A model generated the notes under the pieces. The model saw only the letters and a program-made list of their open reading frames with translations. It was not told the origin of the DNA and made no database searches. Shown here piece by piece: positions 24,548 through 48,070 of a stretch of DNA of 64,000 bases (positions within the stretch are counted from its first letter, which is position 1; each line of letters starts with the position of its first letter). Both the position numbers and the translations under genes were made by a program. Origin of the DNA: Peristeroidobacter soli (lineage in GTDB: Bacteria > Pseudomonadota > Gammaproteobacteria > Steroidobacterales > Steroidobacteraceae); the NCBI RefSeq assembly GCF_004138485.1, contig NZ_RYEV01000008.1:124001-188000 (forward strand). The letters run 5' to 3'.

Positions 24548-24711
24548 CTTTAAGTAGACAGTCCCTGACAGCTTTCGGCGTTTGAATGCGCCCCCTGGTG
24601 AGCGCGCGCTTGAAGCTGCGCTTACAATCCACATCTCCATGATTCGTCGGGCCCGGTCCTCGGGCCTGGCGTTTTTCCTACAGCGTTCGGGGCCTCAGGC
24701 CATCGGTGAGC

Positions 24712-32404: not shown

Positions 32405-32600
32405 ACACAGCAAACAAAAGCGGCCGGCGCCAGCCTTACGCGCTGTTGTGAACCAGCAACGTGTATACATTCCCCGAAGCGGTGCGCCCGCCGTGGTCAC
32501 AATGCGGTCGCCTGCGTAAATGCTGGCGTTTCCGGGAGATTTCTGCGTGTGCCCGCGTCGGAACGATCACGCACGGTTGTACTTCCTTTGCCGATTTTGC
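32405..32600. other. Upstream intergenic region before the first TBDR
   Basis: No gene was recognised. Open frames here lack ribosome-binding sites and have random-looking composition. The promoter of the receptor gene probably lies at the 3' end of this stretch. Confidence 0.4.
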
Positions 32601-32750
32601 AGCTGTATGCTCGGAGCCACGCTTGGGTCGATAGTTGTGAATTATCCATCGCTGCGGCCCAGGAAGGGAGCGTAGCCGACACCCCGAAACTGCAACTGAC
32701 GGGTGTCGGTCAGGAGTCAATTAAAACCCTCTCGCAGGAGGAGCATTCTA
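32601..32750 (+). promoter_or_regulatory. TBDR1 promoter/leader with conserved element and stem-loop
   Basis: The element agctgtatgctcgg at 32601 is matched by agttgtatgctcag at 37261 upstream of the second TBDR, 150 and 135 bp before the respective start codons. A perfect 9-bp stem (ccgacaccc 32676-32684 / gggtgtcgg 32701-32709) sits in the presumed 5' leader. The ribosome-binding block ctctcgcaggagga just before the ATG recurs at 61536 and, with one change, at 37377. Confidence 0.55.
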
Positions 32751-35700
32751 ATGTCGACGAATATTTCGATTCGGCGCGCGGTGAGCTACGCGCTGTGGAC
32801 GAGCGTTGCGGCAGCGGCCGCGCACTCGTCACCGATCATGGCCGCGGAAAACCAGGACATGGTCGCCGAGGTTGTGGTTACCGGTTCACGCATCCAACGT
32901 CAGGACTACGTTGCCAACAGCCCTGTGATCACCAGCACGGCTGAGCAGATTGTCGAGAACGCGGACGTTACTCTCGATACTTATCTGAACACGCTGCCGC
33001 AGGTGAATCCGGCCGGCGGCACCACCTCCAACAACCCGGGTAACGGCGGTCAGTCGAACATCGACCTGCGCGGCCTGGGCGCCAACCGTAACATCGTGCT
33101 GTTTGACGGCCGTCGCGCCATGCCATCGGCGAGCGACATGACGGTCGACCTGAACACCATTCCGCAGGCCCTGATCGAAAGCATCGAAATCGTGACCGGC
33201 GGCGCCGGCGCGGTGTACGGCGCGGACGCGGTGGCGGGCGCGGTGAACATCAAGCTGCGGGAGAACTACGAAGGCCTGGACTTTCGTTATAACTTCTCCA
33301 ACAGCACCGAATACTGGGACGCCGAGGAATATCAGGTTTCCGGTCTCGGCGGCATGAACTTCGCGGACGGTCGCGGCAACTTCGTGATCGGCGCGGATTA
33401 CTCCAAGCGCGAAGGCATGATCAAGAGCCAGCGCGCGTTCGCGGCGCAGGCGACTTCGACCACTTCGTATCTGCCCGAGGGCCTGTACATTCCGGGCGCC
33501 AACGGGCCGGACCAGACGGCGATCGATGCGCTGTTCGGCCGGGCCGATTACGGCAGCAATGCGCCGGGATCGGTGCTCGGAAACCTGATTGGTTTCAACA
33601 CCGATCGCACGTTGTTCTCGCGCGGCGTGTTCAACAGCCCGCGTGACGTGGTGAATTTTCGCTATCCGAACGATCTGAACATCAACGCCAACCTGTTCCC
33701 CGACCTGTATTCGTACAACTTCGACTCGGTCAACATCCTGACCTTGCCGCTGGAGCGCAAGTCGGGCATGGGCAAGTTCAAGTTCGAGTTCGAGGGTGGG
33801 GTCGAAGTGTTCGCGTCGGCCGGCTACACGGAATATGACTCGACCACCGCGCTTGCTCCGACGCCGTTCCCGACGGTGGGCACCAAGGCGCCCGGCGAGG
33901 CATCCGCGATTCAGGCGACCTCGTCATTGGTACGGCCCGGCCGGACCGTCAGCAACAACCTGGTCATCCCACTGAACAATCAGACCATCCCGGATGATCT
34001 GCGCACGCTGCTGGCTCAGCGCACGGGTACCTTGAATACGACGACGGGTCTGATCGAGGGCGATCCCAATCTCATCGATTATCTGACCCCGGCCGCTCAG
34101 CCGATCATGATCCGCACGCGCACGCTCACCACGGGCCTGCGTCAGTCGGCGTTCAACAACGAAGTCCTGCAGTACACGGTCGGTGCGCGCGGTCCGCTGT
34201 TCGGCGACACCTGGAAGTGGGAAGCCTACGCGTCGCAAGGCAAGACCGAGATCACCGAAACCCAAACCGGCAACATCGATACGCAACGTGTGATCGATCT
34301 GGTCGCGATGAACGACAGCGGCGCGAGCGTGTGCGACGGCGGATTGAATTTCTTCGGTCGCAATCCCCTATCGGCGGAGTGCGCGGCCTACATCACGGTG
34401 CCTCCGACAGTGCTGTCGACCGAGTTCAAACAACGCATCGTGCAGGGCTTCGTGACCGGTGAAATCGCTCAGCTGCCCGCCGGCCCGATGTCGCTGGTGG
34501 TCGGTGCCGAGGGCCGCTGGTTCGATTATGACTTCGATCCGGGCAACAGCTCCGGTCCGGTGTCGGGCTTGAATGCCCAGAATCCGGCCAAGGGCAACAA
34601 CAACTTCCAGGATCTGTTCCTCGAGACCCTGATTCCGCTGGTGAACGGTGCGCCGGCGGCCAAGTCGCTGGAACTGAGCCTCGGTTATCGCTTCTCGAAG
34701 AGCGAATTCGAGGACGAGATCGCCGACCTGAAGAGCGACAGCCAGAACTCGAACGCCTACAAGGTCGAGTTGAGCTGGGTGCCGGTCGACAGCCTGCGCG
34801 TGCGCACGTCGTATCAGCGCGCGGTGCGCGCGCCGAACTTCGACGAGTTGTTCGACGGCGGCGGCTCGGCGCCGCAGTACTTCGATCCGTGCTCGGTTGG
34901 CACGGCGAAGCGCACCGGCGCCGATGCGGCCGATATGCGCAGGCTCTGCCAACAGACGGGCGTAGGCGCTTCCGTCATCGATGGTTACGTGCAGACCCCG
35001 GGTAATCAGATCTCGATCACGACCGCTGGCAACATCGATCTGGAGCCGGAGACCGCGGACACCGTCACGATCGGCTTGGTGTTCACTTCTCCTTGGGAAG
35101 GTGCACTGGCCGGCCTGCAGGGTTCGTTGGACTACTACAGTATCGATATCTCCGATCCCATCATCGATCCGTCGCCGAACATCTACGTGGCGGCTTGCTA
35201 CAACTACTACGGCGACAACCCGACCTACAGTGCGACCAATCCGTTCTGCGGTGGCATCGTGCGCGGCGGTGGCGACGTTCTGGGTGTGGATTCCGTGGAC
35301 ACCGACGACGGCGTGTTCCCCGGCATCAACGGTGGTTCGATCAAGACCGATGGTCTGGACCTGCAGTTGAACTACAGCGTCGGCCTGCCAAAGGGCGAGC
35401 TGGGCTTCAACCTGGCGTACAACTATCTGCTGTCGTTCAAGCAGTCGGATCGTCCGGGTCTGCCGGCGCTCGACTACGCGGGCACGGTGTCGTACTTCGG
35501 CGCGGGTCTGGGCACGAGCTTCCCCGAGCAGCGTGCGAATCTCACGGGTCAGTACGCGATCGGTCCGTTCGCCGTCCAGGCCCGTTTGCGCTGGATCGGC
35601 GACATGGAGAATCGCGCGGCCGTGCAGTTCCCCGGTGAGACGTTCAAGGGCGTGCCCTCGATCTCCTACCTGGATCTGTCGGCCAGCTGGAAGTTCATGG

Positions 35701-35846
35701 ACAAGTCGATGTTCCGTATCGGCATGAACAACGTCATGGACAAGCAGCCGCCGGCATATGCGCCGAACGTGCAGTCCGGTACCGACCCGTCGACTTACGA
35801 CGTGATCGGCCGGCGCATCTTCGGTCAGATCTCGATCGGCTTCTAA
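32751..35846 (+). CDS. TonB-dependent outer membrane receptor (TBDR1)
   Basis: 1031-residue receptor. Strong AGGAGG precedes the ATG at 32751. The signal peptide ends near SPIMAA (about residue 33). The plug domain (about 45-160) has the usual EVVVTGSRIQRQ start, NIDLRGLGANRNIVLFDGRRA and GGAGAVYGADAVAGAVNI. A 22-strand barrel follows, ending in the terminal Phe of outer membrane proteins (ISIGF). It should import a large ligand (oligosaccharide, peptide or metal chelate) with TonB energy; the ligand is unknown. It lies among hydroxylase and sulfotransferase genes, which suggests a functional link. A terminator follows. Confidence 0.93.
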   Translation: MSTNISIRRAVSYALWTSVAAAAAHSSPIMAAENQDMVAEVVVTGSRIQRQDYVANSPVITSTAEQIVENADVTLDTYLNTLPQVNPAGGTTSNNPGNGGQSNIDLRGLGANRNIVLFDGRRAMPSASDMTVDLNTIPQALIESIEIVTGGAGAVYGADAVAGAVNIKLRENYEGLDFRYNFSNSTEYWDAEEYQVSGLGGMNFADGRGNFVIGADYSKREGMIKSQRAFAAQATSTTSYLPEGLYIPGANGPDQTAIDALFGRADYGSNAPGSVLGNLIGFNTDRTLFSRGVFNSPRDVVNFRYPNDLNINANLFPDLYSYNFDSVNILTLPLERKSGMGKFKFEFEGGVEVFASAGYTEYDSTTALAPTPFPTVGTKAPGEASAIQATSSLVRPGRTVSNNLVIPLNNQTIPDDLRTLLAQRTGTLNTTTGLIEGDPNLIDYLTPAAQPIMIRTRTLTTGLRQSAFNNEVLQYTVGARGPLFGDTWKWEAYASQGKTEITETQTGNIDTQRVIDLVAMNDSGASVCDGGLNFFGRNPLSAECAAYITVPPTVLSTEFKQRIVQGFVTGEIAQLPAGPMSLVVGAEGRWFDYDFDPGNSSGPVSGLNAQNPAKGNNNFQDLFLETLIPLVNGAPAAKSLELSLGYRFSKSEFEDEIADLKSDSQNSNAYKVELSWVPVDSLRVRTSYQRAVRAPNFDELFDGGGSAPQYFDPCSVGTAKRTGADAADMRRLCQQTGVGASVIDGYVQTPGNQISITTAGNIDLEPETADTVTIGLVFTSPWEGALAGLQGSLDYYSIDISDPIIDPSPNIYVAACYNYYGDNPTYSATNPFCGGIVRGGGDVLGVDSVDTDDGVFPGINGGSIKTDGLDLQLNYSVGLPKGELGFNLAYNYLLSFKQSDRPGLPALDYAGTVSYFGAGLGTSFPEQRANLTGQYAIGPFAVQARLRWIGDMENRAAVQFPGETFKGVPSISYLDLSASWKFMDKSMFRIGMNNVMDKQPPAYAPNVQSGTDPSTYDVIGRRIFGQISIGF

Positions 35847-35875
35847 GCAGGATTGGATCGACCTCGATCCGGAAG

Positions 35876-35902
35876 GGCGGCTCGGCGACGAGCCGCCTTT
35901 TT
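35876..35902 (+). terminator. Rho-independent terminator of TBDR1
   Basis: A 9-bp stem ggcggctcg / cgagccgcc with loop gcga is followed by TTTTTCTT, 30 bp after the receptor stop. Confidence 0.9.
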
Positions 35903-36018
35903 CTTGGCGCGGATTTTCTTGCGGCCAAACGTGCGCGGGGTGCGATCAACGGGCCCAAGGGCCCATGGTGCTCGCGATATCCAGGCCTAATACTCGGCTC
36001 ACGATGCCGAGGTGGGTT

Positions 36019-36294
36019 ATGCCGCGATCCATTACGACCTGTGCGCTCATCGTCCCGTTGGCAATTGCGCTCGCCGCTTGCGCGAACGCTCCGGAAGGAA
36101 TGCGGGACGCGCGGGTTCACTCGACGCCATCCTGGAACAAATACTACGTCGCGGGCTCGCGCATTCCGCGCACGCTGGACGCGCAAGGTCAGCCGCTGAC
36201 CGGCTCTCACATCGTCACCATCACCGATGAAGAGCTGACCAATTCCTCCGGCGTGTTGCTCGGAGACAAGCTCAACGGCGGCTATTCGCGTTGA
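36019..36294 (+). CDS. Small lipoprotein associated with the TBDR region
   Basis: 91-residue predicted lipoprotein. GAGGTGGG precedes the ATG; the leader ends in lipobox ALAAC (Cys20). The mature part contains WNKYYVAGSRIPRTLDAQGQP and an acidic patch (TDEE). I do not recognise the family, but the GSRIPR segment recalls the T/G-S-R-L core of the two Cys2 proteins further downstream. It stands alone between TBDR1 and a converging oxygenase gene. Confidence 0.7.
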   Translation: MPRSITTCALIVPLAIALAACANAPEGMRDARVHSTPSWNKYYVAGSRIPRTLDAQGQPLTGSHIVTITDEELTNSSGVLLGDKLNGGYSR

Positions 36295-36311
36295 TGAAAT
36301 TTTTTTTCGTT

Positions 36312-36335
36312 GATCACTAACTTTAGTTAGTGATC
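36312..36335. repeat. Perfect inverted repeat GATCACTAAC-TTTA-GTTAGTGATC
   Basis: 10-bp arms with a 4-nt loop. It contains the stop codon of the oxygenase gene on the minus strand. No T-run follows in either direction; the eight T residues lie upstream on the plus strand. Half of it (ctttagttagtgat) resembles the palindrome region at 37187-37201, so it may be a protein-binding site as well as a bidirectional hairpin. Confidence 0.6.
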
Positions 36336-37061
36336 GCCGGCCCGTAACCAGCCAGTGATGCTGTAACGAGCGTGCGTCGCTGCCGGAGCCACGTAGCTCA
36401 CGCAGTGGTTCTGCGGCACGCGGAACAGATTCAACACGTTGAACTTGGGCACATAGCCTTCCGCGACGTGGCCGTCGCGGTCGATGAATTGCAGAACGCC
36501 ACCCCAGTCGGCGCGCCACTCCGGAGTAAAACCAAACACATAGGCGGCCAGACGCTGCTTGCCGGCGACGTTGTCGTCATGTTCGGTGAGAAAGTGCCCC
36601 GGCAGATATCGGGTCGCCTGGCTGTCGGCGAAGGCGATGGCGGGCAGTCCGGTGATCGCGCGCGCGAATTGCAGAAATTCCTCCGAATTCAGGAACTCAT
36701 GCATGGCCATGAGCGGGTGCGCGCGCTCGCCCGACCGATACAGATCGTACAGAGGAAAATTCTCGAACACGTATTGGAAACCGCGCCGGGACTGCTCCAG
36801 CATTTTTTTCGTCATCGTCTCTCGCTGCTCCGGCGGCATCAGCATCAGCTGTTGATGCGCGATGTCGACGTGGCGCTGTCCTACGTTGAGCGACAGCTGC
36901 CAGGGCGTGCGCGTGTCGAGTTGCGTGAAGAGAGTGTCCGCACTGGAGGCCGTGAGTACGTCTGGTATGTGCACGCGGCCTTGTGTTCTGAAGATATCGG
37001 CGATCACCCGTCGATCCAGCCGCGGGTTCAATTGGATCTGCAATTGGATCTGCTCGTGCAT
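36327..37061 (-). CDS. Fe(II)/2-oxoglutarate oxygenase, prolyl-hydroxylase-like
   Basis: 244-residue enzyme with the double-stranded beta-helix motif set of SM-20/prolyl 4-hydroxylase relatives. Metal ligands are His161 and Asp163 (LTEHDD) and His219 (PQNHCVSYV); Arg232 (ARYSITGWLR) is placed to bind the 2OG carboxylate. It has no signal peptide, so it is cytoplasmic. Such proteins hydroxylate peptide side chains or small molecules. It is divergent from TBDR2, sharing a 334-bp control region. The start has no strong ribosome-binding site. Confidence 0.85.
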   Translation of the reverse strand: MHEQIQLQIQLNPRLDRRVIADIFRTQGRVHIPDVLTASSADTLFTQLDTRTPWQLSLNVGQRHVDIAHQQLMLMPPEQRETMTKKMLEQSRRGFQYVFENFPLYDLYRSGERAHPLMAMHEFLNSEEFLQFARAITGLPAIAFADSQATRYLPGHFLTEHDDNVAGKQRLAAYVFGFTPEWRADWGGVLQFIDRDGHVAEGYVPKFNVLNLFRVPQNHCVSYVAPAATHARYSITGWLRAGDH

Positions 37062-37184
37062 GTCTTGTCGTTGTACCGGTAAGTATTACAGGCGGCGGTA
37101 TCGAATGACGCTTCTGTACTTGCTAAATGACCGTTGTCTCTTTACAACGCGCGCCGATTGGACACCACTTTGTGCTCGACATCC

Positions 37185-37198
37185 CTTACTTAAGTAAG
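37185..37198. promoter_or_regulatory. 14-bp perfect palindrome CTTACTTAAGTAAG in divergent promoter region
   Basis: Lies between the divergent oxygenase and TBDR2 genes and is symmetrical over 14 bp. The segment cttaagtaagtgat shares 12 of 14 positions with ctttagttagtgat in the inverted repeat at 36312-36335. It is a plausible operator for an unidentified dimeric regulator. Confidence 0.45.
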
Positions 37199-37260
37199 TG
37201 ATTTACAACCGACAGCTCGCGGGAACCGCTGAGAAATCCGCTTGTTGCCGCGAAACCAAC

Positions 37261-37395
37261 AGTTGTATGCTCAGCACACTTCGGTCCAGCGTTGTCGGCG
37301 AGCAAACCACCGACTGTTGCGCATCGATCACGAGATGCCTCATTCACACAGCTGAATGCCCCTCACAAATTTAACCTCTTGCAGGAGGAGTGGAA
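37261..37395 (+). promoter_or_regulatory. TBDR2 promoter/leader with element shared with TBDR1
   Basis: agttgtatgctcag at 37261 matches the TBDR1 element, and tTTGCCG-like sequence lies 12-15 bp upstream in both. The leader ends in cctcttgcaggaggag, nearly the same Shine-Dalgarno block as TBDR1. Confidence 0.5.
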
Positions 37396-40329
37396 ATGAA
37401 ATCGACCAGTAACTCCCTTCGGTACGCAGTTCACTGCGTGCTGTTGGCGAGCGCAGCCACCGCGCTGCCTGCCTTGCCGGCGTTGGCACAGGAAACCGAC
37501 TCGGCGGCCCGGCCCATCGAAGAAGTGGTGATCACCGGTTCGCGCATTCGTCGCGTCGACGAAGAAACCGCCAGCCCCGTGTTCGTCATGGATCAGAACA
37601 CCATCGCCAACACCGGCGTGCAGACGATGGGCGATCTGATGATGCGCGTGCCGGCAATTTCCGGCGCGGCCACCAATCCGCAAGTCAACAACGGCGGCGG
37701 TACCGGTGAATCCAACGTCGAACTGCGCGGTCTCGGTGCGCAGCGCACGCTGGTGCTGTTGAACGGTCGGCGCATCAACGTACTGGGCGCGAACGGCACC
37801 ACGTCGGCGGTCGACATCAACATGATCCCGATCAACATGATCGAGCGGGTCGAAGTGCTGAAGGAAGGTGCTGGCGCCGTGTACGGCTCCGACGCCATCG
37901 CGGGCGTGGTGAACTTCATCACCAAGAAGAATTTCGACGGCGCCGAAGTGAACGTCGAATACGGCCGCACGGGTGAGAATGACGGCGAGCACGAGTCCGC
38001 CAGCCTCACGCTCGGCAGCACGACCGACAAGATGAGCGTCATGTTCGGCGTGAATTACAACAAGCAGAAGGCGGTGTCCGCGGCCGATCGTCAGTTCTCT
38101 GCCAACGCGCTGTACCTCTATGGCGGCGGTGTGAGCGTCGGCGGTTCGAGTCGCACGCCGAATGGTCGCATCGGTCTGCTGGACTGGATGGACGATCCGG
38201 CCCATCCGGATGATCCGGACGCTCCTCAGATTCCGGTGCCGGGCACTCTGGCCGAGCTGTTCCCGGGTTGCTCGGGCACTCAGTCCCTGACGCGCAACGA
38301 CGGTGCGGCCGGCAACGCGGTCAACCCCGCCAACTATCACTGTTTCGCGGGCGCCGACGCATTCAACTATCAGCCGTACAACTTGCTGATCACGCCGACC
38401 GAGCGCACCAGCTTCTTCACGATGCTGAACTACAAGATCACCGAAAACACCGAGGCCTACGGCGAAGTGGTGTACAACCGCACCCGCTCCGGCTTCCAGC
38501 TCGCGGCACTGCCGTTCGACGCCAACGCCGACGACATCGTGATCTCCGCCAACAACGCCTACAACCCGTTCGGCTATGCCTTTGGCGGCGTCGATGGCTT
38601 GAATCCGAACTTCCTGACCCGCCTGCAGGCACTCGGCAATCGTCGCAGCGACGTCGATACCGATTCCATCATCGGTAACGTCGGCGTGCGCGGCAAGTTC
38701 GGCCAGAGCAGCTGGGAATGGGATCTGGGCGCGCAGCTCGGACGTATGAACCAGGACCAGAACATCACCGGTTATCTGCTCAAGCCGCAGCTGCAGAACG
38801 CGGTGGGCCCGACGTTCGTGGACACCGACGGCACGCTCCGATGCGGCAGCGATGCGGCGAATCTGATCGCCGGGTGTACGCCGATCAACTTGTTCAACCT
38901 GTCCGATCCGGCACAGATCCAGGCATTGCGCGACATTTCCACCAACTATCGTAGCGACTACAACTACGACAGCTCGGGCTTCGCGCTCAACACCAATGGC
39001 GAGTTGTTCGATATCAGCGGCGGCACGGTGCTGATGGCGGTGGGTGCGGAATATCGCACGCAAAGAGGTGTGTTCGAGACGGACGTGCTGACGCGCGGCG
39101 AAGCGCCGCTGTATCTGTCCTGCTTGCTCGCGCAGGAAACCTGTACCGGCAACTCCTCGGCCGAATACAACGTGCGCGAAATCTACACCGAGTTCTTCGT
39201 GCCGCTGCTGAAGGATCTGCCGGGCGTGCAGGCGTTGAACGTCACCGTCGGCGTGCGCTACTCGGATTACTCGATCGACACGATCGGCGACGACACCAAC
39301 GCGCAGTTCAAGGTCGAATACCGTCCGATCTCCGACCTGTTGGTCCGCGGTTCGTATGCCCAGGTGTTCCGTGCGCCGACCATCCTCGATTTGTCGAAGG
39401 CGCCGTCGCAGGATTCGCCGACGTTCAACGATCCTTGCACGCAGCTCACGCCGGCGGCGCTCGCGGCCAATCCGGGCCTGGCGCGTGCCTGCGTGGGCGT
39501 GCCGACCAATGGCAATTTCAAGCAGCCGAACAGCCAGATCACCGGTCTGATCCTCGGCAATCCGAACCTGAAGCCGGAAACCGGCGACGTGACCACGTTC
39601 GGCGTGGTGTACGACCCGAACTTCGTCGAAGGGCTGTCGGTGTCGCTGGATTACTGGAAGTACAAGATCGAGGATCTGATCACGCCGCTCGATCCGAACT
39701 TCGCGGTCGAGCAGTGCGTCGACACCGGCACCTACTGCGATCTGCTGTATCGCTATCCGTCGAGCAGCCCGAACGCGGGTGAGTTCCAGGTCTTCCAGGA
39801 ACCCATCGTCAACCTCGGCGTGCTGGAAACCGACGGTTTCGATCTGGGCGTGAAGTACTCGCTGCGCGATACGTCGGCCGGCTCGTTCAACATCACGTTG
39901 GACCTGACCCGCATCAACAGCTACGAGAACACCCCGTCGCCGGGTGCCGCTCCGGTGGAGATCGCGGGTACGTTCGATCGTCAGTTCGGCAACTATGCCA
40001 AGTGGCGCGGTCTGATGGGCGTGGGCTGGGCGATGGGTGGCTTCGACGGTCTGCTGTCGTTTCGTTATATCCACAGCCTGAAGATCATCGGCCCGGACGG
40101 CGGCCTGTCGGATGAGCCGCCGCTGGAGATCGGCTCGACGACCTATATCGATGCGACCTTGGGTTACACGTTCCCGACCGACACCAAGGTCCAGGTCGGC
40201 GGCATCAACCTGACCGACAAGCAGCCGCCGCTGCTGTATCAGAACAACGTCACGAACGCGAACACCGATGTGTCCACCTACGACCTGCTGGGTCGTCGCT
40301 GGTACGTCAGCGTGACGCAGAAATTCTGA
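37396..40329 (+). CDS. TonB-dependent outer membrane receptor (TBDR2)
   Basis: 977-residue receptor preceded by GCAGGAGGAG. The signal peptide ends in ALPALA (about residue 33). The plug (about 40-165) shows EEVVITGSRIRRVDEETASP, NVELRGLGAQRTLVLLNGRRI and EGAGAVYGSDAIAGVVNFI; the barrel ends with a terminal Phe (VTQKF). It is a paralogue of TBDR1 with similar plug and leader, but the barrel loops differ, implying a different or variant ligand. A sulfotransferase gene starts 97 bp downstream after a terminator. Confidence 0.93.
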   Translation: MKSTSNSLRYAVHCVLLASAATALPALPALAQETDSAARPIEEVVITGSRIRRVDEETASPVFVMDQNTIANTGVQTMGDLMMRVPAISGAATNPQVNNGGGTGESNVELRGLGAQRTLVLLNGRRINVLGANGTTSAVDINMIPINMIERVEVLKEGAGAVYGSDAIAGVVNFITKKNFDGAEVNVEYGRTGENDGEHESASLTLGSTTDKMSVMFGVNYNKQKAVSAADRQFSANALYLYGGGVSVGGSSRTPNGRIGLLDWMDDPAHPDDPDAPQIPVPGTLAELFPGCSGTQSLTRNDGAAGNAVNPANYHCFAGADAFNYQPYNLLITPTERTSFFTMLNYKITENTEAYGEVVYNRTRSGFQLAALPFDANADDIVISANNAYNPFGYAFGGVDGLNPNFLTRLQALGNRRSDVDTDSIIGNVGVRGKFGQSSWEWDLGAQLGRMNQDQNITGYLLKPQLQNAVGPTFVDTDGTLRCGSDAANLIAGCTPINLFNLSDPAQIQALRDISTNYRSDYNYDSSGFALNTNGELFDISGGTVLMAVGAEYRTQRGVFETDVLTRGEAPLYLSCLLAQETCTGNSSAEYNVREIYTEFFVPLLKDLPGVQALNVTVGVRYSDYSIDTIGDDTNAQFKVEYRPISDLLVRGSYAQVFRAPTILDLSKAPSQDSPTFNDPCTQLTPAALAANPGLARACVGVPTNGNFKQPNSQITGLILGNPNLKPETGDVTTFGVVYDPNFVEGLSVSLDYWKYKIEDLITPLDPNFAVEQCVDTGTYCDLLYRYPSSSPNAGEFQVFQEPIVNLGVLETDGFDLGVKYSLRDTSAGSFNITLDLTRINSYENTPSPGAAPVEIAGTFDRQFGNYAKWRGLMGVGWAMGGFDGLLSFRYIHSLKIIGPDGGLSDEPPLEIGSTTYIDATLGYTFPTDTKVQVGGINLTDKQPPLLYQNNVTNANTDVSTYDLLGRRWYVSVTQKF

Positions 40330-40376
40330 TCGAGCGGGCCTGCGCGGGCTTTCCTGCGCCGGTCCGATGCAGCTTC

Positions 40377-40413
40377 AAGGGCCGTGAGGTTTTGCCTCGC
40401 GGCCCTTTTCTGT
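40377..40413 (+). terminator. Rho-independent terminator of TBDR2
   Basis: A 13-bp stem aagggccgtgagg / cctcgcggccctt (one G-U pair) with a 5-nt loop is followed by TTCTGTTT. It ends 13 bases before the sulfotransferase start codon. Confidence 0.85.
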
Positions 40414-40426
40414 TTAGTTTCCGGAC

Positions 40427-42280
40427 ATGACTGCCAGTTTCCGTTCATCGTTGCCCCCGGAGTTGCAGGCGTCGCTGCGCGAGGCCGTGACTGCGTTCAA
40501 TGCCGGTCGGTTCGAGTCTGCGGCACGAAGCTGTGAGCGGGTGCTGGCCCGGGCGCCCGGAAATCTGCGAGCGTTGGGCGTTTACGGCGCGGTTCTACAC
40601 GCCCAAGAGCGCTACACCGAGGCCGAGCGCGTGTTCGGTGAGTTGGTGGATGCCGATCCCAACACCGCCATGCACTGGATGAATCTCGCGACCGCCCGGC
40701 GCGGGGCGGGCAAATTCGAGGACGCCCTGCGTGCCTACATGCGCGCATCCGAGCTTGGCTGCGCCACCGCCGATTTCTATTTCAACGTCGGTCTCACCCA
40801 TCTGGATCGACGCGACTACGAATCCGCTCGCGCGGTATTGAAAAAGGCGCTGGAGCTCGCGCCCGCGGATGCCTTGATCCGGTCTGAATACGTTCACGCC
40901 TGTTACGAGACCTTGCAGACGGACGAAGCTCTCGAAGCGCTGCAGGGCTGGACGGAATTCTCGGGGCTGACCCCCGAGCAACTGGCCGATGTCGGTCAAC
41001 GAATGATGAACCTGGGTGAGACCGAGCGCGCCGAGCATGTCCTGTCGCGGCTTGGCAGCCACGAGCTGGATGCACGCGCGATGTTGACACTCGCGCAGAT
41101 CATGGAGCGGACCAATCGATTGCCGGAAGCGCAGCGGCTGGTAGAGCAGCTCTCCAGCGGGGCGCGCGCCGCGTCGCTCGGCATGGATCTGCTCGTCACG
41201 CGAGCGCAGCTGGCGCAACGGGCCGGCGATCACGAGCGCGCCCGCGAATGGTTTCAGGAGGCGCTCTCGCAAGTCGTGCACGAGCACGACAGACATTTCG
41301 TTTTGTTTCCGCTGGCGAAGTCGCTGGACGCCTTGAAGCGTTACGACGAGGCGTTCGCTGCCATGGCCGAGGCGCACACATCGCAAGTCGCGCATTTGAA
41401 GCTCACCGCGCCGATGGCGGTCGCTCGCGGCACGCCGACATGGGATATCACCCGGTGGGGCTGCGATCCCGCCGATATCGCACAATGGGACTATGGCGAC
41501 GTGCCGGCGCTGGAGGAGAGCCCGGTGTTCGTAGTGGCCTTCCCACGGTCGGGCACGACATTGCTGGAGCAAACGCTCGACGCGCATCCGCAGTTGAAAT
41601 CCATGGATGAACAGCCCATCGTCCAGGCGGCGCTCGATGACGTCATTGCCGAGGGCGTGCACTATCCGGAGGAGATGGGGAAACTCACTGCGCAGCAAGT
41701 GGCGGCCATCCGCGCGCGTTATTTCGAACGCGCGGCGGCGAAGGTGAAGCGGACGCCCGGCCAGCGCATCGTCGACAAGAATCCGCTCAACATGCTCCGG
41801 CTGCCGGTGATAAAGCGTTTGTTTCCAAACGCGCCCATCATTCTCGCGGTCCGTCATCCGTGCGACGTGGTGCTGAGTTGCTTCATGCAGCACTTCCGCG
41901 CGCCGCATTTCGTGATGTTGTGCTCCGATCTGCAAACGCTGGCCGATGGCTACCGCCGTTCGTTCGATTTCTGGTACGAGCAGTCGGCCCTGCTGTCGCC
42001 GAACGTGCTGGAAGTCCGTTACGAAAGCTTCGTCGCCGATTTTGAACGCGGCGTGCGGGAGATCGCCGACTTCCTGCGTCTGCCCTGGCACGACGGCATG
42101 CTGGCGCCAGCCGAACACGCGCGCGCCAAGGGATACATCAGCACGCCGAGCTATTCGCAGGTCGTGCAACCGGTGAATCAAAAGGCGGTGGGACGCTGGC
42201 GCGCCTACGAGCGGCACCTCGCGCCCATCATCCCTCAGCTGCAGACTTATTTACGCCGGTGGGATTACTCGGATCGATGA
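40427..42280 (+). CDS. TPR-containing sulfotransferase
   Basis: 617-residue protein: tetratricopeptide repeats over about residues 12-330, then a PAPS-dependent sulfotransferase domain. The 5'-phosphosulfate-binding loop is FPRSGTTLLEQTL (residues 372-384) and the 3'-phosphate motif RHPCDVVLSCF follows about 100 residues later. TPR-sulfotransferases of this build occur beside TonB receptors in other proteobacteria (general knowledge). The acceptor is unknown; the TPR array suggests a protein or peptide acceptor. Its 3' end overlaps the convergent oxygenase gene by 53 bp. Confidence 0.88.
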   Translation: MTASFRSSLPPELQASLREAVTAFNAGRFESAARSCERVLARAPGNLRALGVYGAVLHAQERYTEAERVFGELVDADPNTAMHWMNLATARRGAGKFEDALRAYMRASELGCATADFYFNVGLTHLDRRDYESARAVLKKALELAPADALIRSEYVHACYETLQTDEALEALQGWTEFSGLTPEQLADVGQRMMNLGETERAEHVLSRLGSHELDARAMLTLAQIMERTNRLPEAQRLVEQLSSGARAASLGMDLLVTRAQLAQRAGDHERAREWFQEALSQVVHEHDRHFVLFPLAKSLDALKRYDEAFAAMAEAHTSQVAHLKLTAPMAVARGTPTWDITRWGCDPADIAQWDYGDVPALEESPVFVVAFPRSGTTLLEQTLDAHPQLKSMDEQPIVQAALDDVIAEGVHYPEEMGKLTAQQVAAIRARYFERAAAKVKRTPGQRIVDKNPLNMLRLPVIKRLFPNAPIILAVRHPCDVVLSCFMQHFRAPHFVMLCSDLQTLADGYRRSFDFWYEQSALLSPNVLEVRYESFVADFERGVREIADFLRLPWHDGMLAPAEHARAKGYISTPSYSQVVQPVNQKAVGRWRAYERHLAPIIPQLQTYLRRWDYSDR

Positions 42281-42842
42281 ACAGCAGGTACGTGGAAATG
42301 ATGTACTTGTCGCCCGAGATCGGCGGGCAGCCTTCGTGCTGGTACATCCAGTACGGAGGAAACATCAGCAAGCGACCGGCGCGCGCCGGAATGGTCACGT
42401 CCAGCTGCGGGAAGCGCGTCTCGCCGCCTTGCTCGACATCGTTCAGATACCACAGCAGCACCAGGTAGCGATTCGCCACATGGTTGATGGCATCGAAATG
42501 CAGCTGAAACTGTTCCTGTTGCCCGGCGCGGTAGCGCTTCAGGGTCAGGTTGGCGAACAGCGGCGAGTTGGGAATGGGCAGGGCCAGCTCGATGTCGCGG
42601 TTGTAGCGCTCCAGCGCCCGGTCGATCTGCCGGCGGAACATGCCCTGGAAGGCCTCGTCCGCCAGGCGGCTGACGTTCAGCTCGGTCCAGGCCGAGTCCT
42701 CCAATCCTCTACGCACGCCACGGCCGTTGCGCAGCTGGAAGCGTTCCAGCCCGGCGAACGAACCGATCATCTGCTGGCACAGCTGCGGGTCCAGGTCCTG
42801 ATCGTAGGTGCGAATGTAGCGGCGCAGGTCTGCGTGGCTCAT
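42228..42842 (-). CDS. Fe(II)/2-oxoglutarate oxygenase, PHD-like
   Basis: 204-residue prolyl-hydroxylase-like enzyme. Metal ligands His115 and Asp117 (QLHFDA) and His169 (MYQHEGCPP) are present, with Lys179 (SGDKYIIST) at the 2OG-binding position, as in prolyl 4-hydroxylases. YLVLLWYLNDVEQGGETRFP is the family core. It is cytoplasmic by sequence. It starts only 22 bp from the divergent TPR-hydroxylase gene, so the promoters must overlap coding sequence. Likely a peptide hydroxylase; substrate unknown. Confidence 0.88.
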   Translation of the reverse strand: MSHADLRRYIRTYDQDLDPQLCQQMIGSFAGLERFQLRNGRGVRRGLEDSAWTELNVSRLADEAFQGMFRRQIDRALERYNRDIELALPIPNSPLFANLTLKRYRAGQQEQFQLHFDAINHVANRYLVLLWYLNDVEQGGETRFPQLDVTIPARAGRLLMFPPYWMYQHEGCPPISGDKYIISTYLLFIDPSNPTGVNKSAAEG

Positions 42843-42864
42843 AGGCAGCTATAGTAGCGCGGAA

Positions 42865-44136
42865 ATGAATTCACCAGACATCCAGACCCTGATGCAGCAG
42901 GGCCGGCTCGATGAGGCGGAGCGGCTGGCGCGCCAGTCGTTGCAGCACCGGCCGGGTGACGTGGAATCGCTCAATACGCTGGGTTTGATCGCCCTGCGTC
43001 GCGGGCAGTTCGAACGCGCGCAGCAACTGCTGGAATCGGCCATCGAGTCCAACCCGGGCAATGCGTCGAGCCGGCATTATCTCGGCCGCGTGCACGACGC
43101 GTCGGGCAACACGGAGGGGGCGGTCGCTGCTCACGGTGCCGCGCTCAGGCTCGCGCCCGGCATGTTCATCATCCGCTTGCACTACGCAATCGCGCTGGAG
43201 CGTGCCGGCCAGAACGAGCAGGCGGCGATTCAATATTTTCGTGCGAGCAACGACGCGCAGGCGCAAGGGCGCTGGCTGAGCGCGGAGACCACGGCGCCAG
43301 CGTTGCGGCCGATGGTGGAGCACGCCGTGCGCATGGTCAGAGCGACTCGCAAGGAAACCTTTGCGAAGCTGCTCGAACCGCTGCGTCAGAAGTTCGGTGC
43401 CAGCTCGCTCGATCGCATCGAGCGCGGCCTGCGCATCTACCTTCAGGAAGAAGCGCCGGTTCATCCAGACCCGCGCCAGAAGCCGACGTTCTTCTACGTG
43501 CCCGACGTGCCGCCCGCGCCGTATCTGGATCGATCCCTGTTTCCCTGGATCGAACGGCTCGAAGCACAGACCGATGCCATCCGTCAGGAGCTGTTACAGC
43601 TGCTGCGCAGTGACGCCGGTCGCGAGCGGGTGTTCAACACCGAGGCTATCGAGAAACAAAACCTGCGAGGCTTGCAGACGCCGCCGAGCTGGAACGGTTA
43701 TTACTTTTATCGGCATGGCGAACGCCGCGCCGACAACTGTCTGGCATGTCCCGTGACGGCGAGTACGCTCGAATTCCTGCCCTTGTCTCATGTGCGCGAG
43801 CACGGTCCGGAAGTTCTGTTCTCGGTGTTCACGGCGGGCACGCATTTATTGCCTCATCGCGGCGTGACCAACTCACGGCTGGTCGGGCATCTGCCGTTAC
43901 TCGTGCCGCCGGACTGCGCATTGAATGTCGGCGGCGAAGTGCACGAGTGGCGCGAAGGGCGCGCAGTCATCTTCGATGATACGTACGAGCATGAAGCGTG
44001 GAATCGCAGTGACCGCACGCGTGTGGTTCTGATCTTCGATATCTGGAATCCGCATCTCACCGAAGCCGAGCGTGCCGCCGTCGAGTTGCTCGTGCCGGCC
44101 ATGGGTGATTTCCGGAAAGCGGCGGAGACGGCGTAA
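42865..44136 (+). CDS. TPR protein with aspartyl/asparaginyl beta-hydroxylase domain
   Basis: 423-residue protein. Tetratricopeptide repeats cover about residues 5-130. The C-terminal half is an AspH-type oxygenase: His331 in HRGVTN, HLPLLVP, then His376 in YEHEAWN and Arg385/387 (RSDRTRVVLIFD). AspH enzymes use a two-histidine iron site to hydroxylate Asp or Asn beta-carbons. The domain is complete and of normal length. It heads a three-gene operon: the hydroxylase-sulfotransferase fusion starts 2 bp after its stop. Confidence 0.9.
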   Translation: MNSPDIQTLMQQGRLDEAERLARQSLQHRPGDVESLNTLGLIALRRGQFERAQQLLESAIESNPGNASSRHYLGRVHDASGNTEGAVAAHGAALRLAPGMFIIRLHYAIALERAGQNEQAAIQYFRASNDAQAQGRWLSAETTAPALRPMVEHAVRMVRATRKETFAKLLEPLRQKFGASSLDRIERGLRIYLQEEAPVHPDPRQKPTFFYVPDVPPAPYLDRSLFPWIERLEAQTDAIRQELLQLLRSDAGRERVFNTEAIEKQNLRGLQTPPSWNGYYFYRHGERRADNCLACPVTASTLEFLPLSHVREHGPEVLFSVFTAGTHLLPHRGVTNSRLVGHLPLLVPPDCALNVGGEVHEWREGRAVIFDDTYEHEAWNRSDRTRVVLIFDIWNPHLTEAERAAVELLVPAMGDFRKAAETA

Positions 44137-44138
44137 TC

Positions 44139-45959
44139 ATGCGCTTACCCCGGCCATTTTATCGCTTACCGCTGCGCTTCGATGTGGAGCGGTTGCGCGC
44201 TGAAGCGGCGGCATTGCCTGCCGGCGCCTGGGCTCGTCATCCCAATGATATCAAGGGCAACAGCGCGGCCCGGTTGATCAGCGTCGATGGCGGCGAGAAC
44301 GACGAAGTCAACGGCCGCATGCAGGCGACGCCGCATCTCCAGCAGTCGCCTTACATCCGGCAGATTCTGGCGAGCTTCGGTGTGGTGTGGAGCCGCTCGC
44401 GTCTGTTGCGTCTCGCGCCGGGCGCGATCGTTCCCGAGCATGCCGATATCAACTATCACTGGTTCACGCGCGTCCGTTTACACATTCCCATCGTGACGCG
44501 GCCGGAAGTTCGTTTCTATTGCGCGGACCAGTCCGTGCACATGGCGGCGGGTGAAGCTTGGGTGTTCGACAACTGGCGTTCGCATCGAGTCGAAAACTTC
44601 ACACCGGACGAACGCATTCACCTGGTCGCGGATACGTCGGGTAGCGCCAATTTCTGGCAGCTGGTCGCGCAAAGTGACAACCCGAATGCGCAAGTGCGCG
44701 AGGTTCCCTACATCGCGGATCGCCAGCTGTCGCCGCTCATGGAGCGCTCCAAGCTTGCGGCCGTCATGACGCCGGGCGAAATGGATTTCTTGATTCTCGA
44801 CCTGCGCTCGGAGCTGGAGGCTCGAGAGAACCTATCAGACTCGCGCGCGCGTCTGATTCGTTATCACGGATTGCTGGAAGGGTTCTGCAAAGACTGGCGG
44901 CAGCTGTACTCATTGTATGGCGAGGAGCCCGACGGTTGGCCGGAGTTCGTGCGTCTGCGCGACAGCATACGCAATGCGTCTCGAGAGCTGTCGGAGGGCT
45001 TGATGATGCGCACGAATCGAGTGCCGGCTCATCAGGTGCTGGAAGGTCGTGTATTGCGCGCGATGTTGTCGCTGCCGCAGCCGGCGCGCCGGCGCATGCA
45101 GAAGATCGACGCGCCGATTTTCATCGTCTCGGCACCGCGCTCCGGAAGCACGCTGCTGTTCGAAACATTGGCGGCGAGCTCGCAGCTGTGCACGGTTGGA
45201 GGTGAAGCGCATTGGTTGGTGGAAGGAATCGAGGCGCTACGTCCCGGCGCGCCGGGCATTGACTCCAATCGTTTGACGGCTGAGCATGTCAGCGACGTCA
45301 TCGCGGCCGACATCCGCGAGCAGATTCTGTCGCGGCTGCAGGACCACGCAGGTCGGCCGCTGCGCGAGCCCGGCGAACGACGTTTCCTGGAAAAGACGCC
45401 GAAGAACTCGCTACGAATTCCGTTTTTCAATCATATATTTCCCGATGCGCGCTTCGTGTTCCTGTGGCGCGATCCGCGCGAGAACATCAGCAGCATCATG
45501 GAGGCCTGGCGATCTGGCAACTGGCGTACTTATCCCAAACTGGAGGGGTTCGATGGACCGTGGTCGATGCTGTTGCCGCCAGGCTGGCGCGCCATGAACG
45601 GCCGACCGCTGGCTGAAATCGCCGCCTGGCAATGGGAACGAACCAACGCCCGAATCCTCGATGACCTGCAAGCGTTGAGCAGTGAACGCTGGGCAGCGCT
45701 GGAATATGATGAACTGCTGCGGAATCCCGTCGGTGCTATCGGTAAGCTATGCGACTTCCTGCGGATGCCGGTAGATTCAGCACTGGCGCAGCGTTTGTCC
45801 GCGCCGCAGCCGCCGTCCCGTTACACACTGACCCCGCCAGCAGCGGACAAATGGCGCGCGAATGAGGCGCAGATTGCTCCGGTGTTACCGTCCGTTCAGG
45901 CCACGTGGGATAGATTGCGAGCGTTGAGTGGGGCTCAAGGAGTTGGCGATGTTTCGTAA
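44139..45959 (+). CDS. Fusion of AspH-like hydroxylase and sulfotransferase
   Basis: 606-residue bifunctional protein. Residues about 1-170 are AspH-like: His101 and Asp103 (EHADINYHWFTRVRLHIPI), His149 (NWRSHRVEN) and Arg159. Residues about 325-600 form a sulfotransferase with the PAPS loop SAPRSGSTLLFETL (from residue 331) and the WRDPRENISSIM 3'-phosphate motif. The middle (170-320) is helical linker. The fusion places an oxygenase that creates a hydroxyl beside an enzyme that sulfates hydroxyls, suggesting sequential hydroxylation and O-sulfation of one substrate; this is inference. It is tightly coupled to both neighbouring genes (2 bp gap before, 11 bp overlap after). Confidence 0.88.
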   Translation: MRLPRPFYRLPLRFDVERLRAEAAALPAGAWARHPNDIKGNSAARLISVDGGENDEVNGRMQATPHLQQSPYIRQILASFGVVWSRSRLLRLAPGAIVPEHADINYHWFTRVRLHIPIVTRPEVRFYCADQSVHMAAGEAWVFDNWRSHRVENFTPDERIHLVADTSGSANFWQLVAQSDNPNAQVREVPYIADRQLSPLMERSKLAAVMTPGEMDFLILDLRSELEARENLSDSRARLIRYHGLLEGFCKDWRQLYSLYGEEPDGWPEFVRLRDSIRNASRELSEGLMMRTNRVPAHQVLEGRVLRAMLSLPQPARRRMQKIDAPIFIVSAPRSGSTLLFETLAASSQLCTVGGEAHWLVEGIEALRPGAPGIDSNRLTAEHVSDVIAADIREQILSRLQDHAGRPLREPGERRFLEKTPKNSLRIPFFNHIFPDARFVFLWRDPRENISSIMEAWRSGNWRTYPKLEGFDGPWSMLLPPGWRAMNGRPLAEIAAWQWERTNARILDDLQALSSERWAALEYDELLRNPVGAIGKLCDFLRMPVDSALAQRLSAPQPPSRYTLTPPAADKWRANEAQIAPVLPSVQATWDRLRALSGAQGVGDVS

Positions 45960-46377
45960 GTTGTTGTTGATTGCGGCTGTCGCTGGCGCGACGAGCCAGG
46001 TCTTCGCACAGCAGGTCGCTCCGGCCGAGCCCGCTGCGCCCGCCGCGGCACCTCAGGCGGCAACGCCTGCGCCACCGCCGGCCGACGCCAAAGTGATCAA
46101 GGAACCTGCTGCCGCTGCGGCGCCGGCCGATGAAAAAGCAAACCCGCTGACGGAAGGACAGATTGACGCCGATAAGATCATGGCCATGCAAAAGGCCGGC
46201 TACACGATCAAGAACGAGAACGGCCAGACTCTGCTATGCCGTCGGGACAATCAGACCGGCTCGCGACTGCGTCACAAGACATCCTGTATGACTGCGCGGG
46301 AATGGGAACAGTTGCAGGAAGAGAACAAACTCCAGCTCAAGTCGCTGGAGCGTCGTCCGCGCATGAGTCCGCAGTAG
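45949..46377 (+). CDS. Small exported protein with C-x15-C signature
   Basis: 142-residue protein. AAGGAG precedes the ATG at 45949, inside the 3' end of the fusion gene. The signal peptide ends in VFA (about residue 21). A long Pro/Ala-rich linker (about 22-70) leads to a conserved domain: Cys-x15-Cys followed by M-T-A-R-E-W, with T-G-S-R-L between the cysteines. The same signature, without gaps, is present in the lipoprotein at 47729-48070. Family function unknown; the co-operonic position makes it a candidate substrate of the hydroxylase and sulfotransferase. Confidence 0.82.
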   Translation: MFRKLLLIAAVAGATSQVFAQQVAPAEPAAPAAAPQAATPAPPPADAKVIKEPAAAAAPADEKANPLTEGQIDADKIMAMQKAGYTIKNENGQTLLCRRDNQTGSRLRHKTSCMTAREWEQLQEENKLQLKSLERRPRMSPQ

Positions 46378-46388
46378 AGATGCCATGG

Positions 46389-47081
46389 CTACTGGAACGA
46401 GTAGCCGTGACGTTCGATGACCAGTTGGTCGCGCTCGGCGACCAGCTGCGCCAGCCCGGCATCGTAGAACTGACGATGAGGCGCATGTTCCGAAGTGTTC
46501 AGCGCCGGCGCGGTGCTCATGTAATCGCGCAGCTCCGATGTCACAGGCTCGCCCGCCGATTCCAGTAGCGGTGGCACTTCAGTCCGCAACTGCTCCATGC
46601 GGGCGAGCTTTACGGCCGCGATGTCCGGCCCATACAAATATCGATAAAGAAACGAATAGAAGCCGAGGCCACTGCCCCGAATCGGCGCCAGCGCGGAGTT
46701 CGGCAGGTTCAGCCCTTGATTGAGATAGGTCGCCGGCAACGCCGCGAGCGCCCGCTCCAGCAACGCCGGGTCGCGATCCAGGTTCAGCATGTTTCGAATC
46801 GTTGCCGCGAAGTCCAGCGTGCCGCCCTGGCTCAGCGTTTGAAACAAGGCGTTGGGTTGCGGCCGCGAGCGCTGAAAGCTGTACCACGAAACATAGTAGC
46901 TCCAGGGATTTCGCACCAGGCCCAGCAACGGCAGCGAGGAGTACTGCGCGGGCAGCATCGAGCGGGGCAGGTGATAGCCGATCTGCCTGGCGCCCGCGAT
47001 GTGATGGATCAGACCGGCGTTGACGAAAGTGCCGCCGGACTTATGTAAGTGCAGGAAGACGAAGCGAGGAGTGACGATCAT
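46389..47081 (-). CDS. Sulfotransferase family protein
   Basis: 230-residue single-domain sulfotransferase. The PAPS-binding loop is HLHKSGGTFVN (residues 11-21), and LVRNPWSYYVSWYSF provides the 3'-phosphate motif. This K-S-G-G-T type loop is typical of carbohydrate and tyrosylprotein sulfotransferase relatives. Its ATG overlaps the stop of the AspH-like gene upstream (ATGA), so the two are cotranslated. It converges on the Cys2 protein gene with 11 bp between stops. Confidence 0.85.
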   Translation of the reverse strand: MIVTPRFVFLHLHKSGGTFVNAGLIHHIAGARQIGYHLPRSMLPAQYSSLPLLGLVRNPWSYYVSWYSFQRSRPQPNALFQTLSQGGTLDFAATIRNMLNLDRDPALLERALAALPATYLNQGLNLPNSALAPIRGSGLGFYSFLYRYLYGPDIAAVKLARMEQLRTEVPPLLESAGEPVTSELRDYMSTAPALNTSEHAPHRQFYDAGLAQLVAERDQLVIERHGYSFQ

Positions 47082-47722
47082 CCCGCGGCATGCGTGGCGA
47101 AATGCCGATCGACGGTTTCGTCGTACCGGCCGAGGTTCCGGTCGCCGGCCGCCAGGAGTTGCAGCAGGTCGGGCGTGGGCAGGAAGTCACAGATCATGTG
47201 AGTGCGCGATCGTTCCGGGTCGGCGTTCCACACCGCGTGCGGCGAGCTGTTGTTCAGTACCCAGATCTCGCCGGGCCGCATCAGATAAGTGAGCTCACCG
47301 GCGATCATATGCACGTGCTCGTGTGACTCGATCGGAAAATGCAGCCGCAACGTCTTGGCGAAATACGGTGCGCGATCGATGTGCGGATCGATGGAGACAC
47401 CGCCGGGCAGACGTGCGAGCAAACATCGCTGCGGTGGCGCCGGTATCAGCTTTTCAATGATCTCGCGGGCATACGGCATCAGCGCCAGCGGCTCACGATC
47501 CTCGATCGGCAACGCTCCCTGCGCCGGCGCGTAACCCCGAAGAAACAAGGCCTCGGCGTTGCGATGAACGCCGACACGGCCGCCGGTGGATCCCCATAGA
47601 GCCGTCGGCAATGCCGCGACCTCATCCGCCAGTCGCCGCGCATCGATTCCCACCGGCAGGCGCAGGCAGCCGCCCACCAGCGTGGTCTTGTCGATGACGG
47701 GATGGCCGGGGAGGTCCAGCAT
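47078..47722 (-). CDS. Aspartyl/asparaginyl beta-hydroxylase-like oxygenase
   Basis: 214-residue enzyme. Metal-binding His114 and Asp116 (DPHIDRAPYFAKTLRLHFPI) and His162 (SSPHAVWN) are present, with Arg173 (RSRTHMICDF) for 2OG. Compared with the TPR-fused member, this one keeps an H-x-D carboxylate. It starts 6 bp after the stop of the Cys2 lipoprotein gene and overlaps the sulfotransferase gene, so the three form one transcript. Probably hydroxylates a peptide or amino-acid side chain. Confidence 0.87.
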   Translation of the reverse strand: MLDLPGHPVIDKTTLVGGCLRLPVGIDARRLADEVAALPTALWGSTGGRVGVHRNAEALFLRGYAPAQGALPIEDREPLALMPYAREIIEKLIPAPPQRCLLARLPGGVSIDPHIDRAPYFAKTLRLHFPIESHEHVHMIAGELTYLMRPGEIWVLNNSSPHAVWNADPERSRTHMICDFLPTPDLLQLLAAGDRNLGRYDETVDRHFATHAAG

Positions 47723-47728
47723 TGCCGT

Positions 47729-48070
47729 TCAATTGCCCCTGGGCGGCAGGGCTTCGCTGGAGTTGAGGGCTTCCTTGAAGCCGTCCTTCGCATTGTTGGT
47801 GCGCGCGGTCCATTCGTCCTGAGTCAGGCAGATCTTTTTGTTCTTCAGTCGCGTGTTGGTCACGGACTCCTGCTTGCAGATGATCTTCTTGCCGTCCGCG
47901 GTATTGATGGGCTCGCCGCTTTCGACGGAATAGTTGATCAGCCGCTGGGCCTTCTGATCGTCCGTTTCCTTGGCCGCCACCGCGGGCGCGGCGGTGGGCG
48001 CGACCGGCTTCGGCGAGGCGCAGCCGAGCAATGCGACCAGGCAAACCGATAAACAAATGAGTGAGCGCAT
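47729..48070 (-). CDS. Small lipoprotein with C-x15-C signature
   Basis: 113-residue predicted lipoprotein; AAGGAAG precedes the ATG at 48070, and the lipobox is ALLGC (Cys17). After an Ala/Pro-rich linker come Cys-x15-Cys, an internal T-N-T-R-L and a following L-T-Q-D-E-W, matching the exported protein of the opposing operon position for position. It lies between a DUF192 gene (20 bp upstream) and the AspH-like gene (6 bp downstream). Confidence 0.82.
   Translation of the reverse strand: MRSLICLSVCLVALLGCASPKPVAPTAAPAVAAKETDDQKAQRLINYSVESGEPINTADGKKIICKQESVTNTRLKNKKICLTQDEWTARTNNAKDGFKEALNSSEALPPRGN

Follow-up and report, generated by a model that had tools for sequence, protein, structure and literature searches.

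A conserved PF05118 oxygenase-sulfotransferase fusion in Peristeroidobacter soli as a candidate modifier of exported proteins

A single polypeptide of Peristeroidobacter soli combines a predicted 2-oxoglutarate (2OG)/Fe(II) hydroxylase of family PF05118 with a PAPS sulfotransferase of the tyrosylprotein-sulfotransferase (TPST) type, and we propose, with a probability of roughly 0.55, that this fusion is a bifunctional enzyme which modifies exported proteins encoded nearby. Its gene lies in a stretch of 64,000 nucleotides (the window), taken from a genome of 9.37 Mb in 17 contigs, and forms a complete reading frame from an ATG start to a TAA stop (Table 1). In agreement with the original prediction of a hydroxylase and a sulfotransferase in one 606-residue chain, both domains score above their curated Pfam cut-offs, namely Asp_Arg_Hydrox (PF05118; residues 63-166, E 3e-14, 53.6 bits, cut-off 22.6) and Sulfotransfer_3 (residues 326-546, E 9.2e-27, 95.1 bits, cut-off 27). 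The iron ligands His101, Asp103 and His149 occur at the residues predicted, and the PAPS loop APRSGST, expected near residue 332, spans residues 332-338. The Pfam scan gave no TPR match and no DUF4915 domain in the fusion protein, whose chain ends after the sulfotransferase. The AlphaFold2 model reaches a mean pLDDT of 93.5 with a pTM of 0.60: the folds of the individual parts are modelled with confidence, the way they are arranged relative to each other is not. Structural comparison with VIA-align relates the two halves of the model to the 2OG hydroxylase fold and the tyrosylprotein sulfotransferase fold, and a helical domain would join them.

Table 1. Features of the window's gene island, parts of the fusion protein, and related loci named in the text
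Feature	Position	Strand	Basis or remark
TPR + 2OG-Fe(II) oxygenase (PF13759), 609 aa	30575..32404	+	Pfam
TonB-dependent receptor, 1047 aa	32703..35846	+	Pfam
2OG-Fe(II) oxygenase (PF13661), 244 aa	36327..37061	-	Pfam
TonB-dependent receptor, 979 aa	37390..40329	+	Conserved first cassette gene
TPR + TPST-like sulfotransferase, 617 aa	40427..42280	+	Protein-tyrosine sulfotransferase, E 1.7e-16
2OG-Fe(II) oxygenase (PF13640), 204 aa	42228..42842	-	Divergent from the 42865 gene
TPR + AspH-type oxygenase, 423 aa	42865..44136	+	HxG...H; human AspH, E 2.9e-27
Fusion protein, 606 aa	44139..45959	+	Oxygenase, helical and sulfotransferase parts
Fusion, PF05118 2OG/Fe(II) oxygenase	residues 1-206		H101, D103, H149, R159; R113, H115
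Fusion, helical domain	residues ~207-312		
Fusion, TPST-like PAPS sulfotransferase	residues 319-601		P333-RSGST, E356, K419, R444, S452
Small exported Cys2 protein, 142 aa	45949..46377	+	Signal-peptide-like start, two-cysteine loop with TGSR
Sulfotransferase-like protein, 230 aa	46389..47081	-	Weak PF00685, E 0.012
PF05118 oxygenase, HxD motif, 214 aa	47078..47722	-	~28% identical to the fusion's N-terminal half
Second Cys2 protein, lipoprotein-like, 113 aa	47729..48070	-	Same iterated profile family
Example three-domain fusion	L111:7318-9858		
Three-domain loci with beta-helix neighbour	L085, L087, L088, L089, L098, L101, L105, L106, L109, L111, L112, L113		

The fusion is widely conserved. 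Scanning of named bacterial and archaeal genomes gave a count of 433 relatives, and 79 loci were kept and read; both halves stand in one open frame in 77 of them, the exceptions being an in-frame stop (L071) and a contig end (L075). This conservation in one frame excludes chance or assembly error, including an error confined to one genome, the outcome that the original prediction had named as damaging to it. The two-domain combination recurs, and 16 of the 79 loci add a DUF4915 domain. Alignment of the window fusion with the 77 intact relatives (n = 78, down to ~40% identity) revealed H101, D103, H149, R113, H115, R159, R334, G336, E356, K419, R444, S452 and K571 as invariant; the nearest named relative, Steroidobacter agaridevorans, carries a fusion 87% identical to that of the window. 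Judged by record titles, 67 of the 79 loci belong to Pseudomonadota and the remainder to Cyanobacteriota, Acidobacteriota, Actinomycetota, Planctomycetota, Verrucomicrobiota and Myxococcota, these phylum names being provisional because many records are metagenome-assembled genomes and some titles (L087, L097) look mislabelled.

Within the taxonomic family of the window the search covered 200 genomes, and 20 of the 29 loci read there (L009-L037) hold both halves in a single open reading frame. In three genomes (G035, G052, G110) the halves are encoded by two adjacent genes, the order being reversed so that the sulfotransferase comes first, and two (G160, G086) carry the oxygenase half without a fused sulfotransferase and with a separate TPR-sulfotransferase gene close to it; the gene that follows the latter is a TonB receptor, as confirmed in G086 only. 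The other loci are cut or partial. The two activities are therefore linked also in these five genomes in which they are unfused. No relative of the fusion is encoded in the viral contigs searched, and phage records gave one match, covering 13% of the query. Two plasmid records contain near full-length homologues named only 'sulfotransferase', so that the oxygenase half is easily overlooked. On an Asticcacaulis plasmid (L170:11956-13755), the annotated 'sulfotransferase' coding sequence begins at 12874 and the frame is open from ~11956; the gene table therefore misses the oxygenase half.

The oxygenase half possesses a full HxD...H triad. With a profile of the 78 proteins its best solved sequence match is L-proline cis-4-hydroxylase (4P7W, E 1.9e-15, residues 12-221); proline 3-hydroxylase (1E5R) and a beta-hydroxylase from the biosynthesis of a nucleoside antibiotic are matched as well, and the fusion model aligns with 7V4M, L-proline cis-4-hydroxylase and AspH at Z 16.5, 15.8 and 15.6, respectively (VIA-align). 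L-proline cis-4-hydroxylase shares the HxD...H site and the fold, yet both proline hydroxylases are stand-alone enzymes that act on free amino acids and lack a sulfotransferase, unlike the fusion. Human AspH binds iron through H679 and H725 only, in an HxG...H arrangement, and the 2OG analogue is contacted at its oxalyl end by R688 and H690 and at the opposite end by R735 (PMC10947486). By alignment R113, H115 and R159 of the fusion are likely the counterparts of these 2OG-contact residues. The label 'AspH-like' originally given to this half thus fits at family level only, because human AspH uses just two histidines: the PF05118 family, the fold and the 2OG-binding Arg/His pattern are common to both, whereas the fusion has an iron-site Asp that is absent from AspH, lacks the TPR domain of AspH and carries a sulfotransferase instead. 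By its sequence, the true AspH homologue of the window is the neighbouring TPR protein, whose gene ends 2 nt upstream of the fusion gene. AspH proper acts on Asp and Asn residues of EGF-like domains.

The sulfotransferase half superimposes on TPST1 with Z 19.2 and an rmsd of 3.2 over 221 aligned positions (VIA-align), and its PRSG loop, Glu, Lys and Arg...Ser pair fall on TPST positions; in TPST-type enzymes PRSG is the PAPS 5' loop, the Glu is catalytic and the Arg...Ser pair belongs to the 3' side. TPST1 and TPST2, which sulfate tyrosines of proteins, have this fold and these residues in common with the C-terminal half, but they are only ~18% identical to the fusion and contain no oxygenase domain. 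With the profile of 78, the best solved sequence match is the CurM sulfotransferase (PDB 4GBM, E 5.1e-19), which, unlike the fusion, belongs to a polyketide synthase line, and protein-tyrosine sulfotransferases follow at E about 1e-13.

The fusion gene is part of an island (30575-48070) that encodes two TonB receptors and two small Cys2 proteins. Six proteins of the island have one 2OG-oxygenase domain each and three have one sulfotransferase domain each, the fusion being included in both counts and the sulfotransferase match at 46389 being weak. A cassette of TonB-dependent receptor, TPR-sulfotransferase and TPR-AspH genes accompanies 21 of 63 two-domain loci versus none of 16 three-domain loci, and its carriers include records of Steroidobacteraceae, Solimonas, Hydrocarboniphaga, Nevskia, Rhodanobacter, Ideonella and Rubrivivax. 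Many other two-domain fusions (Brevundimonas, several Rhodanobacter) are surrounded by housekeeping genes. Outside the island, the window holds a 1933-residue open reading frame (24706-30507) whose start resembles UvrA; the usual UvrA is about half that length. Elsewhere in the same genome a PF05118-like hydroxylase is paired twice more with a TPR-sulfotransferase (L133:10888-12368, L135:9306-11003), accompanied by an unclassified open reading frame of ~310-340 residues with no Pfam or NCBIfam match.

The Cys2 gene that follows the fusion gene starts with an ATG 11 nt inside its end, preceded by AAGGAG. This unannotated family (two-cysteine loop, TGSR-like core) matched no Pfam family, and an iterated profile seeded with the window's two members found 18 open reading frames in the window and 13 other loci; 10 of these 14 loci, window included, have a member immediately 3' of the fusion and in the same orientation. 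A genome-wide search in eight cassette genomes (G000, G214-G217, G530-G532) found 12 members, 11 of them within the cassette: eight directly at the fusion gene, one ~1.8 kb off and two at 8-10 kb in the same wider cluster, the twelfth being a weak match elsewhere. The best matches of profile A3 lie near the fusion partly by construction, because the profile was built mostly from fusion-adjacent members; the genome-wide scarcity of Cys2 in cassette genomes is not an artefact of that construction. In L045-L052, a group of loci in which the cassette is mostly present, no Cys2 gene was detected adjoining the fusion. In the window's taxonomic family Cys2 occurs in 84 of 200 genomes, often without the fusion, and of 20 Cys2 neighbourhoods away from it two contain sulfotransferase, TonB receptor and hydroxylase genes and three more a TonB receptor. 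The small Cys2 proteins, originally put forward as substrates to assay, are thus real neighbours of the fusion, but this distribution weakens the idea of a dedicated substrate; they are a real companion and a good candidate substrate.

In the 16 longer fusions a third, C-terminal domain, the DUF4915 beta-propeller (TIGR03032/DUF4915), sits behind the other two (E 1e-114 to 1e-128 in the five proteins run against Pfam). A search for PF16261 found it in 14 of 14 genomes, reached via 15 of the 16 loci (L106 was left out), mostly in open frames of fusion length, and found no PF16261 (DUF4915) in the window's genome. In the model of the L109 protein (pLDDT 82, pTM 0.46) the propeller most resembles the YWTD propellers found in relatives of the LDL receptor (Z 23.8). 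A gene for a secreted protein of right-handed beta-helix type directly adjoins 12 of the 16 loci; in L106 a contig end cuts this gene off after its first part. The four exceptions are L093 and L097, which start at a contig edge, L095, where no such gene occurs, and L108, whose neighbour is of another kind. The neighbours checked bear marks such as repeats of the beta-helix or Chlamydia PMP type, choice-of-anchor Q, Calx-beta or IPTL-CTERM, and the neighbour in L113, with no Pfam match, is assigned by homology. Beside the 63 two-domain loci neither the motif search nor the homology cluster found a beta-helix gene (12/16 versus 0/63, Fisher's exact p 4e-11, ignoring relatedness). In the tree of the 78 proteins three-domain status needs only 3 changes, so the 16 loci are not independent events; the carriers span several phyla. 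On a Diaphorobacter plasmid outside the 79 loci, the gene for a two-domain fusion is accompanied by an overlapping TIGR03032 gene and by a divergently oriented gene for a beta-helix protein with IPTL-CTERM.

Two further ideas on these neighbours were given up. DUF4915 alone is a poor marker of beta-helix genes, with only 2 of 26 stand-alone loci having one by homology; these 26 were the strongest matches, minus two at contig ends (G384, G327). Stand-alone DUF4915 genes adjoin open reading frames of more than 1700 residues in six of the 26 (L149, L154, L156, L162, L165, L168). A prediction of tyrosine sulfation from acidic tyrosines found no significant support: the medians within beta-helix regions are 1.00 per 100 residues in 13 fusion-adjacent proteins versus 0.14 in 16 others (p 0.10). 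The sets examined numbered 14 and 21, of which 1 and 5 had no measurable region and were dropped, and the fusion-adjacent set is not fully independent because L112 and L113 give two proteins each.

As 2OG and PAPS are cytosolic cosubstrates, the fusion should act before export, presumably on a polypeptide in the cytosol. That the target is a protein we infer from the TPR of partner enzymes, the exported neighbours and the propeller. In a cassette of the window's type the most likely targets would be the small Cys2 proteins or the TonB receptor, and in three-domain relatives the beta-helix surface-type protein, which the added propeller may hold. Both halves would work on one protein, with hydroxylation coming first and creating the sulfation site, and it is plausible that the sulfate is placed on the hydroxyl just made by the first half. 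The more specific, two-step version is tentative: one and the same polypeptide would hydroxylate a side chain of an exported protein, in a Cys2 loop or a beta-helix repeat, and then O-sulfate the hydroxyl so formed.

A different division of labour, with the hydroxylase acting on an Asn/Asp/Pro-type residue and the sulfotransferase on Tyr/Ser/Thr as two separate modifications of one protein, would leave the fusion merely to bring both enzymes to one target. The resemblance of the second half to TPST, which needs no prior hydroxylation, and the lack of a confident domain arrangement in the model (pTM 0.60) are compatible with it; we nevertheless consider it rather unlikely, the two halves being together in nearly all homologues read, which coupled steps fit at least as well. 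That one half is non-catalytic, a regulatory or binding module, is hardly credible, given that the residues for iron, 2OG and PAPS do not vary among the 78 proteins, which come from several phyla. Three observations would instead suit an enzyme that hydroxylates and sulfates a small molecule (a lipid, a natural product or a free amino acid), the compound being handled by the TonB receptor: the solved enzymes nearest to the oxygenase half use free proline or take part in making a nucleoside antibiotic, the sulfotransferase half matches the polyketide enzyme CurM, and the neighbouring TPR-AspH scores, though below cut-off, on the models of the lipid hydroxylases OlsC and LpxO. Such an enzyme appears improbable: no NRPS, PKS or ligase genes were seen among the scanned cassette proteins, the three-domain relatives adjoin surface-type proteins, and the neighbouring enzymes carry TPR, a domain which in AspH helps to bind the protein substrate (PMC13168262).

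The action of the fusion on exported proteins encoded nearby is favoured by the unvarying catalytic residues, by the recurrence of the fused design, by the cassette and by the Cys2 and beta-helix neighbours. It is weakened by the many two-domain fusions that stand alone among housekeeping genes, by the wide occurrence of Cys2 without the fusion, by the failure to detect it beside the fusion in L045-L052, by the rarity of beta-helix genes near stand-alone DUF4915 and by the acidic-tyrosine comparison (p ~0.1).

The component domains were already known, and in open-licence full-text literature, outside which most subscription papers lie, we found no description of the fusion, DUF4915 or TIGR03032. 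To our knowledge, sulfated proteins are little known in bacteria. Here two fused enzyme types have stayed intact over large distances beside exported proteins, and the proposed modification pathway, with named substrate candidates, is thus directly testable. If the two-step version is true, a sulfated hydroxy-amino acid would be present on bacterial surface proteins of several phyla.
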